From positions 248,001 to 312,000 of the forward strand of contig NZ_CANLWM010000008.1 in assembly GCF_947494875.1 (NCBI RefSeq): a stretch of DNA of 64,000 nucleotides, in the 5' to 3' direction. A program made the position numbers and the translations under genes. Under the pieces are notes generated by a model. It was not told the DNA's origin. It worked only from the letters and a program-made list of their open reading frames with translations, and searched no databases. Of the stretch, positions 10,879-62,465 are shown piece by piece; the first letter of the stretch is position 1; each line of letters begins with the position of its first letter. This DNA is from an uncultured Williamsia sp. (GTDB taxonomy: Bacteria > Actinomycetota > Actinomycetes > Mycobacteriales > Mycobacteriaceae).

Positions 10879-11646
10879 ATGGCCAGTCCGCGGACCGATC
10901 TGAACGCCGATCTCGGCGAGGGATACGGGGTGTGGCGTCTCGGCGACGACGAGGCGCTGCTGTCGGTGGTGACCTCGGCCAACATCGCCTGCGGCTTCCA
11001 CGCCGGCGATCCCGCGGGGCTCCGGACCACCTGTGCGGCGGCGGTCGACGCCGGCGTGCGGATCGGCGCCCAGGTGTCCTATCCCGACCGCGTCGGATTC
11101 GGCCGCCGCTTCGTCGACGCCGCCCCGGATGACCTCACCGCCGACGTGATCTACCAGATCGGCGCGCTCGACGGCATCGCGCGGTCGGTGGGTGGCCGCG
11201 TGGAGTACGTGAAACCCCATGGTGCGCTGTACAACACGATCGTCCACCACGAGGTTCAGGCCCGGGCGGTGGTCGACGCCCTGCTCGCGGTCGACGTCAC
11301 CCTCCCCCTCGTCACCCTCCCCGGGTCGGCGGCCGCGCGGCTGGCACGCGACGCCGGGATCCGCGTCGTGGCCGAGGGTTTCGCCGACCGCGGCTACCGG
11401 TCCGACGGGTCACTCGCACCGCGCGGCACCGACGGTGCACTGCTCTCCGACACCGCCGAGATCTGTGCGCGCACGGTCCGCATGGTGACCGCGAACGAGG
11501 TCGTCGCGGTCGACGGCAGCATCGTCCCGGTCGAGGTCGACTCGATCTGCCTGCACGGTGACACGCCCGGCGCGGTGGATCACGCCCGCGCCGTCGCCGC
11601 CGCCCTCACCGACGCCGGGGTCACGCTCAGGTCGTTCCTGACCTGA
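10879..11646 (+). CDS. pxpA: LamB/YcsF family protein, 5-oxoprolinase subunit A-like
   Basis: The 255-residue protein has the LamB/YcsF (PxpA) signature: DLNADLGEGYG at the N-terminus, SANIACGFHAGDP, QVSYPDRVGFGRR and VKPHGALYN. In the PxpABC complex PxpA acts with PxpB and PxpC in ATP-dependent cleavage of 5-oxoproline to glutamate. Neither pxpB nor pxpC is nearby, so here PxpA must find partners encoded elsewhere or act alone. ATG 10879 is preferred over two GTG codons just upstream (10873, 10876). Confidence 0.88.
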   Translation: MASPRTDLNADLGEGYGVWRLGDDEALLSVVTSANIACGFHAGDPAGLRTTCAAAVDAGVRIGAQVSYPDRVGFGRRFVDAAPDDLTADVIYQIGALDGIARSVGGRVEYVKPHGALYNTIVHHEVQARAVVDALLAVDVTLPLVTLPGSAAARLARDAGIRVVAEGFADRGYRSDGSLAPRGTDGALLSDTAEICARTVRMVTANEVVAVDGSIVPVEVDSICLHGDTPGAVDHARAVAAALTDAGVTLRSFLT

Positions 11647-11672
11647 GGTCCTCAGACGACAACGGTTGTCCG

Positions 11673-12266
11673 TCAACGGTCGTCGGCGGGACCGACGAAC
11701 AGCGTGGTCGTGTCGTCGATCAGGACGCCTGCCTCCTCGGATGTGATGCGGCCCGTCCCGACCAGCGTCGCGATGCCCTGGAGGGTGGCGATGAGCAGCA
11801 TCTGGGTGCGCTCCGGGTCGGCGAGCGGCCGGACCCCGGCCTCGTGCCCGTCCAGGACCACTCGTCGCGACACCTCGTAGAAGCGGCGCACGGCCTCCGT
11901 CAACGACGGGGGCGGGTCGACCGTCTTCGTGAACATGAGATCCAGCAGCGCCGGCTCGGTCGCCGCGAAGTCGACGAACACCTCGGCCAGAGCGCGGAAT
12001 CGGTCCCGGTGATCAGGATGCGCGGTCGCGGCGTCGGACATCCTCCGCGTCATGAGCTCGAAACCCCTCTCCGCGAGGGCGTTCACGAGCGCGTGGCGAT
12101 CACGGAAGTGTCGACGGGGCGCCGCGTGGCTGACGCCGGCGTCGCGCGCCAGCTCTCGCAGTGACAGCGCGTCCACCCCACCGGAGCGGATGACCTCATG
12201 CGCCCGGTCGAGCAACACCGCGCGCAGATTCCCGTGGTGGAACGGCTTGTCGGCTGCGGAGCCCAT
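11673..12266 (-). CDS. TetR/AcrR family transcriptional regulator
   Basis: The 197-residue regulator has a TetR helix-turn-helix at about residues 28-55 (LSLRELARDAGVSHAAPRRHF) and a mostly helical C-terminal ligand domain. It is divergent from the SDR gene at 12328. A perfect 7-3-7 palindrome sits between the two starts, so it probably represses itself and that SDR. The ligand is unknown. Confidence 0.88.
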   Translation of the reverse strand: MGSAADKPFHHGNLRAVLLDRAHEVIRSGGVDALSLRELARDAGVSHAAPRRHFRDRHALVNALAERGFELMTRRMSDAATAHPDHRDRFRALAEVFVDFAATEPALLDLMFTKTVDPPPSLTEAVRRFYEVSRRVVLDGHEAGVRPLADPERTQMLLIATLQGIATLVGTGRITSEEAGVLIDDTTTLFVGPADDR

Positions 12267-12284
12267 GTGGCGAACCTACCCCGA

Positions 12285-12301
12285 TGTAGTCGTTGACTAC
12301 A
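12285..12301. promoter_or_regulatory. TetR operator between the TetR and SDR genes
   Basis: TGTAGTC-GTT-GACTACA is a perfect 17-bp inverted repeat (7-3-7). It lies 19 bp upstream of the TetR start and 26 bp upstream of the SDR start, in the place expected for an autoregulatory operator covering both promoters. Confidence 0.75.
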
Positions 12302-12327
12302 ATGTTGACACCGGCTACTTTGACGGG

Positions 12328-13203
12328 ATGACCACACCCGAGCCCTCATCGACGCCGCCTCGCGACCTGACCGGGAGGACCGCGGTCATCACCGGCGCCA
12401 ACTCCGGTATCGGATGGTCCACCGCGCAGGCCTTCGTTCAGCGCGGAGCGCACACCGTGCTCGCGGTGCGCGACACCGACAAAGGCCGGGAGGCCGCATC
12501 CCGTCTCGACGGATCCACGGAAGTGGTCTCACTCGACCTCGCCGCCCCGGCGTCCGTCACCCGCTTCACGCAGGAGTGGGGAACGCGCCCGATCGACTGG
12601 CTGATCAACAACGCCGGCATCAGCACCACCGACCTTCACCGGACCGCCGACGGTCGCGAGCTGCAGTTCGCGACCAATCATCTCGGGCCGTTCGCACTGA
12701 CCACCCTGTTGCTGCCCAGGATCACGACGCGCATCGTGACGGTGTCCTCGATGGCGGAGCGTCGGGCCCGCCTCGACCTCGACGACCTCGATTGGGAACG
12801 ACGGTCCTACAACGGGTTCCAGGCCTACGCCAACTCGAAGCAGGCGAACCTGCTGTTCACCGCAGACCTCCAACGTCGCCTCGACGACGCGGGGTCGTCG
12901 GTGCGGGCTCTCGCGGCGCATCCGGGTTTCGTCGCCACGGGCATCTACGACGGGACCACCAACCCGGTCGCGCGACTCGCGGTCCGTCTGGTCGCGCAGC
13001 CACCGGAGGCGGGCGCGCTACCGACCCTCCACGCCGCATTCGCCGATCTCCCCGGCGACACCTTCACCGGGCCGAGACACCTTTTCCACATGCGCGGCGG
13101 AGCGCAGGTCATCACACGCTCGGCGACAGCCGCGGACCCCGAGCTCGCTCGCGGGCTCTGGGAGGCGAGCGAGCGGCTCACCGGCGTCCGTTTCTCTCTC
13201 TGA
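12328..13203 (+). CDS. short-chain dehydrogenase/reductase
   Basis: The 291-residue SDR resembles retinol-dehydrogenase/WW-domain-oxidoreductase-type members. It has the cofactor motif TGANSGIG (about residues 23-30), NNAG near 98, a catalytic Ser in VSSMAE and the active-site YANSK. The Arg after the second strand (AVRDTDKGRE) suggests NADP(H) preference. The substrate is unknown. ATG 12328 is chosen because the frame upstream passes through the operator and the TetR gene. Control by the divergent TetR is likely. Confidence 0.85.
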   Translation: MTTPEPSSTPPRDLTGRTAVITGANSGIGWSTAQAFVQRGAHTVLAVRDTDKGREAASRLDGSTEVVSLDLAAPASVTRFTQEWGTRPIDWLINNAGISTTDLHRTADGRELQFATNHLGPFALTTLLLPRITTRIVTVSSMAERRARLDLDDLDWERRSYNGFQAYANSKQANLLFTADLQRRLDDAGSSVRALAAHPGFVATGIYDGTTNPVARLAVRLVAQPPEAGALPTLHAAFADLPGDTFTGPRHLFHMRGGAQVITRSATAADPELARGLWEASERLTGVRFSL

Positions 13204-52429: not shown

Positions 52430-52618
52430 TCACTCGATGGAGAGTGCCGCCTTCGGGCAGTTGGCGACCACCTGGCGCATCTCCTCGAGGCGGTCGTCGG
52501 GGACCTCCTCCTGCAGGATCACCAGGTAGTCGTTGTCGTCGAGGTCGAACACGTCGGGAGCCATGCCGACGCAGACCGCGTTGGACTCGCAGAGGTCGAA
52601 ATCTGCCTTGATGCGCAT
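52430..52618 (-). CDS. fdxD: 3Fe-4S ferredoxin FdxD
   Basis: The 62-residue ferredoxin has cluster ligands Cys10, Cys16 and Cys54 (CESNAVCVGMAPDVF and NCPKAAL). The second Cys position of a 4Fe-4S motif is Asn13, the usual sign of a 3Fe-4S ferredoxin that serves P450 enzymes. It lies between hsd4A and fadE26 as in Rv3503c. It may supply electrons to a sterol-side-chain P450. The divergent promoter holds a KstR operator. Confidence 0.92.
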   Translation of the reverse strand: MRIKADFDLCESNAVCVGMAPDVFDLDDNDYLVILQEEVPDDRLEEMRQVVANCPKAALSIE

Positions 52619-59499: not shown

Positions 59500-59550
59500 G
59501 TTTTGGGCAAGGACACCGCAGAACACCTGCCTGATCGAGAGGGAGTCGTC

Positions 59551-60348
59551 GTGCCCGACACCCCGGAGCCCGAATGCCTCGTCGAGAAGCGCGGACACAC
59601 GCTGATCGTGACCCTGAACCGTCCGCAGGCGCGCAACGCGCTGTCGACGGAGATGATGCGCATCATGGTCGAGGCCTGGGACCGCATCGACTCCGACGAC
59701 GACATCCGCGTCGCGATCCTGACCGGGGCGGGCGGGTACTTCTGCGCGGGCGCGGATCTGAAGAACATGGACAGGAACGCGCCGGGTGACAGCTTCGACT
59801 CCGGCGAATTCGACCCCACCCACCTTCCCGCGCTCCTCAAAGGTCGACGCCTGACCAAGCCGTTGATCGCCGCGGTCGAGGGACCGGCGATCGCCGGCGG
59901 GACCGAGATCCTGCAGGGCACCGACATCCGCGTCGCCGGCGAGAGCGCGCGGTTCGGCGTCGCCGAGGCGCGCTGGGGCCTGTTCCCTCTCGGCGGCAGC
60001 GCTGTCCGGCTCGTCCGCCAGATCCCGTACACGATCGCCGCCGACATCCTGCTGACCGGCCGCCAGGTCACCGCCGCCGAGGCGTTGTCCTACGGGCTGA
60101 TCGGGTACGTCGTCCCCGACGGCACCGCACTGGAGAAGGCACTCGAGATCGCCGACCGCATCGCCGCGAACGGTCCCGTCGCGGTGCAGAACATCCTCCG
60201 CACGATCCGCGACACCGAGGGCATGCACGAGATGGACGCGTTCCCCATCGAGGCCGCGCTCGGCAAGAAGGTGTTCTCCAGCGACGACGCGAAGATCGGC
60301 CCGAAGGCGTTCGCGAACAAGGAGAAGCCGGTCTTCACCGGCCGGTGA
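59551..60348 (+). CDS. echA19: enoyl-CoA hydratase EchA19
   Basis: The 265-residue crotonase-fold hydratase adds water to the 2,3-double bond of acyl-CoA esters. Oxyanion-hole regions are AGADLKNM and [14 protein letters not shown]. The catalytic Glu is expected in [12 protein letters not shown]. The M. tuberculosis homologue acts on cholesterol side-chain enoyl-CoAs. GTG 59551 follows GAGAGGGAG. The 3' end overlaps the facing TetR gene by 14 bp. Confidence 0.93.
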
Positions 60349-60985
60349 GCGAACCCGTCGCCGTGGTCTCGTCGCCGAGGATCTCGACGACGAGCGGGGG
60401 CAGCACCGACGGCGGCAGGCCCGCGAGCGTCCCGAAGAACGACGAGCGACACATGGCGACGACGTCGTCGGGGTCGATCCGCTTGTCGGTCAGCATCTCG
60501 TAGCAGGCCGCACGCAGCTGGCCGATCCAGCTCCGCAACGCGAGCACGAGGATCGGCGCGGGGTCGTCGGCGCCGGTGACGGACAGGATGCGGGATATCT
60601 GCTCGTCGCTCGAGACCGAGACCAGCGACACGACCTCCGGATCCGAGCTGACGCCACTGCGGAACACCGCGCGCACGCCGTGTTCGTGCTGCAGGCAGTG
60701 GTCGACGAAGGCACGGATGCCGTTCACCAGCTGCTCCACGGGCGACAGCGTGGGATCCGGTGCCGTCTCGTCCATGAGGCGTTCGTTCTCGCGGGTGAGC
60801 ATCGCGACGAAGAACTCCCGCTTCCCCGGGAAGTAGTGGTAGAGCAGGCCGCGGGAGACACCCGCGAGCTCTGCGACGCGTTCGATGTGCACCTCGTCGT
60901 ACGGGTGGGTCGCGAAGAGCTCGACGCCGAGGTCCAGCAACGCCTCACGCCGACGTTCGGGACTCATCCGCGTTCGTCCGGCCAC
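60335..60985 (-). CDS. TetR family regulator, divergent from the P450
   Basis: This 216-residue TetR protein has a helix-turn-helix at about residues 33-52 ([24 protein letters not shown]) and a helical ligand domain with several Trp/Phe that could bind a hydrophobic ligand. It is unlikely to be KstR, which is usually encoded elsewhere. Adjacent position suggests control of the P450, as the TetR repressor BM3R1 controls CYP102A1 in Bacillus megaterium. GTG start at 60985. Confidence 0.87.
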
Positions 60986-61014
60986 GCGCTCACGCTACCC
61001 GGCCGGGTCGCTAC

Positions 61015-61029
61015 TTGACGCTGGTTCAA
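61015..61029. promoter_or_regulatory. candidate TetR operator between the TetR and P450 genes
   Basis: TTGACGCTGGTTCAA contains TTGA and TCAA as an inverted repeat (5 of 7 positions paired in 7-1-7 register) in the 64-bp divergent spacer. Weaker than the other operators in the window. Confidence 0.4.
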
Positions 61030-61049
61030 TAGCGCGGGAGAGTCAGGGC

Positions 61050-62465
61050 GTGGCACGCAACGACTGGCACGGCCGACAGTTCCCCCACCCGGGTCGCCGC
61101 CGACCGGTGATCGGTGACCTCCTGACCGTGGACCGCTCGAGTCCGATCCAGAGCATGCTCGAGGCGTCGCGCGGCCTGGGTCCGATCTGGGAACTCCGTG
61201 TCCTGCGCGAGCGACTGGTGTTCGTCGGGACCGCCGAGCTCACCGCGGAGTTGTGCGACGAGACCCGCTTCTGCAAGGCGCTGCCGCCCGCGGTCGACGC
61301 CCTGCGCGACTACGCCGGCGACGGGCTGTTCACCGCCTACAACCACGAGCCGAACTGGCAACTGGCGCACGAGCTCCTGGTCCCCGCCTTCACCAAGTCG
61401 GCGATGCGCTCCTACCACCCCGTCATGGTCGAGACGGCGTCGGAACTGTTCGACTACTGGGAGCGTCGACTGGCCGACGGTCCCGTCGACGTCTCGCGCG
61501 ACATGACCAAGCTGACCATGGAGACCCTCACGCGCTCCGCGTTCAGCCGGGACTTCGGGTCGTTCCGGACAGCGGAGGCACACCCCTTCGTCGCCGCTAT
61601 GGTCACTGCGCTGGAGACCGGCCGCCGCAAGGGCACGGTGCGCACGCTGCCGGGCGGCTCGGCGCTCGCGTGGCTGCTCGACCGCCGCTACGCACGCCAC
61701 ACGGACTACCTCGACTCGATGCTCGACGAGCTCATCGCCACCCGGAGCGGTTCCGACGAGCAGCACGACCTCCTCGGCATCATGCTGAACGTCGCCCACC
61801 CCGAGACCGGCGAGAAGCTGGAGCCGGTCAACATCCGGTATCAGATCCTCACCTTCCTGGTCGCCGGACACGAGACGACCTCGGGCGCACTGTCGTTCGC
61901 GCTGCACTATCTGGCCCGCAACCCCGACTGCCTCGCTCGGGCACGGTCCGAGGCCGACGAGATCCTCGGCGACGACCCCACCGCGATGCCCGAGTTCGAG
62001 CAGGTGGCCAAGTTCCGGTACATCCGTCGGGTGCTCGACGAGTCGCTGCGCATCTGGCCGACCGTCCCGGGATTCGCCCGGGCTCCGCGGGAGTCGACGG
62101 TGCTCGCCGACGAGTACCGCATGGATCCCGACGACTACGCGATCGTGAGCCTCGGCGCGGTGCACAAGGATCCAGCCGTCTGGGACGACCCCGACCGCTT
62201 CGACCCGGACCGGTTCCTCCCCGGGAACGTCAAGAAGCGACCACCCCACAGCTACAAGCCGTTCGGGGCGGGGTTGCGGTCCTGCATCGGGCGCCAGTTC
62301 GCGATCCACGAGGCCGTCCTGGTCCTCGCGACCCTGATCCACCGATTCGACTTCGAGGGCGACCCCGGCTACGACCTCCGCGTCACCGAACGCCTCACCA
62401 TGCTCCCCGAGGGCTTCGAGCTGACCTTGCGTCCTCGCGCACGGTCGGAGGTCGCGGCCTCCTGA
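61050..62465 (+). CDS. stand-alone cytochrome P450 resembling the CYP102 (P450 BM3) heme domain
   Basis: The 471-residue P450 has the I-helix AGHETTSG (about residue 273), ExxR in DESLRIWP and the heme-ligand loop FGAGLRSCIGRQFA (Cys about 412). Stretches such as GLFTAYNHEPNWQLAHELLVPAF, SRDMTKLTMETL and FAIHEAVLVLATLIHRFDFE are strongly BM3-like, and the length equals the BM3 heme domain alone. The diflavin reductase half is absent; the protein stops after the heme domain. Electrons must come in trans, possibly from a ferredoxin. Fatty-acid hydroxylation is the known reaction of the family; a sterol-related substrate is possible by location. GTG 61050 is the proposed start. Confidence 0.9.
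   Translation: MARNDWHGRQFPHPGRRRPVIGDLLTVDRSSPIQSMLEASRGLGPIWELRVLRERLVFVGTAELTAELCDETRFCKALPPAVDALRDYAGDGLFTAYNHEPNWQLAHELLVPAFTKSAMRSYHPVMVETASELFDYWERRLADGPVDVSRDMTKLTMETLTRSAFSRDFGSFRTAEAHPFVAAMVTALETGRRKGTVRTLPGGSALAWLLDRRYARHTDYLDSMLDELIATRSGSDEQHDLLGIMLNVAHPETGEKLEPVNIRYQILTFLVAGHETTSGALSFALHYLARNPDCLARARSEADEILGDDPTAMPEFEQVAKFRYIRRVLDESLRIWPTVPGFARAPRESTVLADEYRMDPDDYAIVSLGAVHKDPAVWDDPDRFDPDRFLPGNVKKRPPHSYKPFGAGLRSCIGRQFAIHEAVLVLATLIHRFDFEGDPGYDLRVTERLTMLPEGFELTLRPRARSEVAAS

Follow-up and report, generated by a model that had tools for sequence, protein, structure and literature searches.

Cytochrome P450 BM3 (CYP102A1) from Bacillus megaterium carries a heme domain fused to a diflavin reductase, and a TetR-type regulator, BM3R1, is encoded beside it. 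The residues R47 and Y51 are the carboxylate anchors of BM3. Among the CYP102 enzymes, CYP102B1 from Streptomyces coelicolor and CYP102H1 from Nocardia farcinica are named as lacking a fused reductase (PMC9728198). CYP102B1 is called a fatty acid hydroxylase in the title of Lamb et al., 2010 (AEM 76:1975), as cited in PMC9728198 and PMC9405906. According to PMC9405906, the endogenous function has been determined for no CYP102.

The window analysed here is a 64,000 nucleotide stretch (C8:248001-312000) from a Williamsia-type genome (G000, 4.77 Mb). It encodes a heme-only CYP102-type P450 at positions 61050-62465 of the forward strand. The open reading frame is intact, begins with GTG, and translates into 471 amino acids without an internal stop; its start region is kept in W. 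serinedens and W. deligens, which carry the nearest named orthologs (89% and 88% identity). The Pfam domain p450 spans the whole protein, which is one of 21 P450 matches in the genome. When the PDB was searched with phmmer, all of the 60 best sequences listed were CYP102 heme domains, with 8hkj as top match (E 1.6e-115), BM3 at about 1e-113, and residues 24-460 of the query covered. Sequence identity over aligned columns is 42% to each of these two proteins. Of the BM3 residues (BM3 numbering), F87, T88, W96, H100, A264, E267, T268, F393, R398, and C400 are retained. The description of the protein as a BM3-like heme domain, made in the initial sequence-only reading, is thus well founded. The aligned stretch ends at BM3 residue 448, and the Williamsia protein extends about 11 residues further. 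The carboxylate anchors are replaced (R47 by E, Y51 by F), and the substrate could therefore be something other than a free fatty acid held in the manner of BM3; both positions also vary among fused members. Orthologs with 51-89% identity have about 470-550 residues and closed reading frames.

For phylogenetic analysis, a tree with 66 rows was computed, including six outgroups, all of them unfused. It replaced an earlier tree which suffered from long branches due to very distant outgroups. The query, BM3, and the fused homologs form a CYP102-like clade which is separated from the outgroups with a support of 100/100. By the usual P450 naming rule, members of a family share at least about 40% identity; the 42% identity to BM3 together with this placement assigns the query to CYP102. 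Within the CYP102-like clade, the heme-only proteins group together (32 rows, support 99/98) in a clade which includes sequences from Streptomyces, Rhodococcus, Gordonia, and Williamsia. The fused proteins and BM3 form the other clade (28 rows, support 80/70), which contains a single unfused pair (L180 and L181). The query is outside of the fused clade in the best rooted tree. Having a heme domain alone and belonging to the 99/98 actinobacterial clade, it is a heme-only, CYP102B-like protein. It shares with CYP102B1 the absence of an encoded reductase but comes from another genus and has another gene neighborhood. The heme-only orthologs from Streptomyces are 51-55% identical to the Williamsia P450, and its likeness to CYP102B1 rests on clade and genus; membership in the CYP102B subfamily calls for about 55% identity or more to CYP102B1 itself. 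A heme-only protein from an N. farcinica plasmid (L172) shares about 43% identity with the query and is found in the same clade; its equation with the unfused CYP102H1 is uncertain. CYP102A1 shares the heme domain family, the signature residues, and the adjacent TetR-type gene, but differs by its fused reductase and its position in the other clade.

Heme-only proteins of this type are common. In a class-wide actinobacterial sample (297 genomes, E<=1e-60, heme-only and fused proteins distinguished by open-frame length), 28 of the 52 matches listed were heme-only and 24 were fused. The notion of near-universal fusion in CYP102 enzymes therefore fails in actinobacteria. In a sample at the family level, 158 of 301 genomes had a match, and by frame length nearly all matches listed were heme-only. 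A close ortholog (at least 75% identity) occurs in seven of eight Williamsia genomes, that of the query included; the eighth has one heme-only homolog with 51% identity and one fused homolog. Heme-only homologs are up to 89% identical to the query, fused homologs at most 47%. In many Streptomyces (L049, L078, L083, L086, L197, and others), the heme-only gene and a gene for a fused CYP102 paralog are separated by about 7-14 kb. Heme-only CYP102 genes were also encountered on plasmids from Nocardia, Rhodococcus, and Gordonia (L172, L173, L175, L177), and in three of the four that were fetched (L172, L175, L177) the gene directly follows one that is annotated as MAB_1171c-type transporter or DUF6545. 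The literature searched contained no paper on a heme-only CYP102 from Williamsia or Gordonia. Since the heme-only CYP102B1 was published in 2010, the Williamsia P450 belongs to an already known kind: rather than an isolated oddity, it is a further member of a large, described group of actinobacterial heme-only CYP102 proteins, and it is ordinary apart from the conserved TetR gene and operator-like site beside it.

The absence of an adjacent reductase gene was confirmed: the flanks of the P450 gene contain no diflavin reductase, and the open reading frame stops after 471 residues, without the C-terminal reductase that characterizes self-sufficient CYP102A-type enzymes. A domain search of the whole genome for a stand-alone enzyme also retrieved no diflavin reductase of the P450 reductase kind. 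Two Flavodoxin_1 matches were obtained. The stronger one resides, together with the single FAD_binding_1 domain of the genome, in an open reading frame of 1381 residues, which starts with molybdopterin oxidoreductase domains and is thus organized like a fused assimilatory nitrate reductase; the second, weaker Flavodoxin_1 match is in a separate open frame of 222 residues. On the proximal face of the P450, no clear FMN-docking signature was found, and positions 78, 151, 155, and 316 alone separate heme-only from fused proteins. The genome encodes six ferredoxins of the Fer4_15 type and three ferredoxin reductases with a Reductase_C domain, which makes electron supply by a ferredoxin plausible. 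The P450 loci were searched with probes derived from four of the ferredoxins and from all three reductases. Nothing was found within 8 kb of the P450 in any genus, so a dedicated ferredoxin or ferredoxin reductase gene next to it was rejected. Nearest is the gene for an FdxD-like ferredoxin of the Fer4_15 type (62 residues, positions 52430-52618, reverse strand; PF13459 match at C8:300436-300612). It is located 8.4-8.6 kb from the P450 gene in Williamsia and in one Gordonia and is not near the P450 in most other loci. We consider this ferredoxin a candidate, not a dedicated, electron donor.

A TetR family regulator of 216 residues (PF00440, E 1.8e-14) is encoded divergently to the P450 at positions 60335-60985 of the reverse strand, as had been recognized in the sequence-only reading. 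Of 138 loci with P450 identities of at least 47%, 109 have a homolog of this regulator in the divergent position. Within Williamsia, these homologs share 64-84% identity with the regulator; for those from Rhodococcus and Streptomyces, the identity is about 40%. They occur in other genera as well, while none was found in the Gordonia loci examined. Between the two genes, at positions 61012-61032 (forward strand), is the operator-like site TACTTGACGCTGGTTCAATAG, which overlaps a −35-like TTGAC. The intergenic regions share the motif ACTTGAC-N5-TTC, and its core is present in 98 of 139 regions upstream of P450 homologs with at least 47% identity. In the 4.67 Mb of all loci compared (both strands), the core motif occurs 102 times in total, and most of the four copies which are not upstream of P450 homologs are duplicate copies of the query locus. 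In a pairwise tabulation, the TetR gene is present at all of the 97 motif-bearing loci, and the motif is found at none of the 29 loci devoid of TetR; 12 loci have TetR but no exact core motif. These loci are mutually related, and some represent the same genome twice, so that the counts are not independent events. Regulator and motif are conserved together beside P450 genes of the heme-only clade.

The sequence-only reading had also suggested that an old, BM3R1-type regulation might have been preserved. Among 31 sampled loci with less than 47% identity, both fused and unfused, no TetR homolog (E<=1e-3) was encoded divergently. Such regulation is thus not supported, no homolog having been found beside the sampled fused genes. 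As far as compared, the likeness to BM3R1-CYP102A1 is one of gene arrangement only. When the longer site pattern was used to look for other operator targets in the genome, 61012-61032 was the only exact copy. Two further sites had two mismatches each, and a reversed control pattern gave as many. One of them (L201:2322-2342, corresponding to G000:C9:225321-225341) precedes a class I-type P450 gene (L201:2409-3743) by about 70 bp. With equally many matches for the control, this copy may be due to chance.

We consider it likely that the Williamsia P450 is a heme-only, CYP102B1-like fatty-acyl monooxygenase which receives its electrons from a separate ferredoxin and reductase and is repressed by the TetR regulator at ACTTGAC-N5-TTC. 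The soluble P450 would hydroxylate a fatty-acyl substrate, a substrate class adopted by analogy to CYP102B1. Electrons would be delivered by a ferredoxin and a ferredoxin reductase encoded elsewhere in the genome. The regulator presumably binds to the operator-like site over the promoter and represses the P450 gene, and a lipid-like ligand would cause its release.

That the query might be an ordinary class I P450 outside of CYP102, resembling BM3 in looks only, could be considered for an unfused protein from a genome with that many P450 matches. Such an assignment is extremely improbable, since identity to non-CYP102 outgroups is only about 20-29%, compared to 42% for BM3, and the 100/100 placement with the CYP102 heme domains refutes it. 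The tree thus did not give the outcome that would have spoken against the sequence-only reading, a class I family outside of the CYP102 relatives. How the unfused state arose is a separate question. The best tree leans toward a separate, never-fused line for the heme-only clade, which is beside the fused clade with all outgroups being unfused, but the root is weak (80/70). The reductase may instead have been lost from a once-fused CYP102 ancestral to the heme-only clade. In AU tests, nesting of the heme-only clade among the fused proteins was not rejected (p 0.36 in two tree versions). In addition, the separate pair L180 and L181 (genomes G826 and G687) is unfused, has no reductase match in about 7 kb, and yet is inside the fused clade. 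This pair likely represents an independent reductase loss, which suggests that secondary loss does seem to happen. For the heme-only clade as a whole, we regard a loss as the less probable course, though one that deserves consideration; it is compatible with the function proposed above.

The neighborhood raises the question of whether the P450 was recruited to sterol side-chain catabolism, where it would oxidize a sterol intermediate with FdxD from the same cluster as donor. Positions 59545-60348 of the forward strand (start approximate) encode an EchA19-type enoyl-CoA hydratase of a sterol side-chain cluster (NF051848, 432.7 bits, cut-off 400). The upstream sterol side-chain genes further encode two acyl-CoA dehydrogenases and two synthetases. 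One of the latter is an acyl-CoA synthetase closest to FadD17, the other is FadD19-like; both names follow from the best-matching model and the order of the genes, and the match to FadD17 is below the curated cut-off. In Williamsia and several Gordonia, the P450 gene adjoins echA19, fadD19-like, and fadD17-like genes, with the FdxD-like ferredoxin 8.5 kb away, and in some Gordonia it is directly behind echA19, without TetR. Among the loci examined, however, this linkage is confined to Williamsia and part of Gordonia. The neighbors in Rhodococcus (DNA polymerase IV type, flavohemoglobin) and Streptomyces (lactonase, pentapeptide protein) are unrelated to the sterol cluster. The conserved unit thus consists of TetR and P450 only, and the echA19 gene is a neighbor outside of it. 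Furthermore, no steroid-specific family model matches the BM3-like P450, and a P450 with a divergent thiolase, presumably a CYP125-FadA5-like arrangement as judged from gene order, is already present about 8 kb further on. This pair (L093:10234-11565 and 11636-12802) is located just past the window; no specific family model confirmed it as CYP125 or FadA5. We consider recruitment to sterol catabolism unlikely; a sterol role may exist, but is probably not the original one.

The protein is thus best viewed as a CYP102B1-like monooxygenase with its own conserved regulator. Unfused CYP102 proteins are common in actinobacteria, accounting for about half of the strong homologs listed in the class-wide sample. 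This amends the picture of CYP102 as a fused family and provides material for studying the origin of the BM3 fusion. The conserved TetR gene and motif offer a route to the natural inducer. It is doubtful that a heme-only clade having its own TetR and operator, unlike BM3R1, has had its enzyme drawn into sterol side-chain catabolism in Williamsia and Gordonia; if true, such recruitment would represent the first physiological role for a CYP102.
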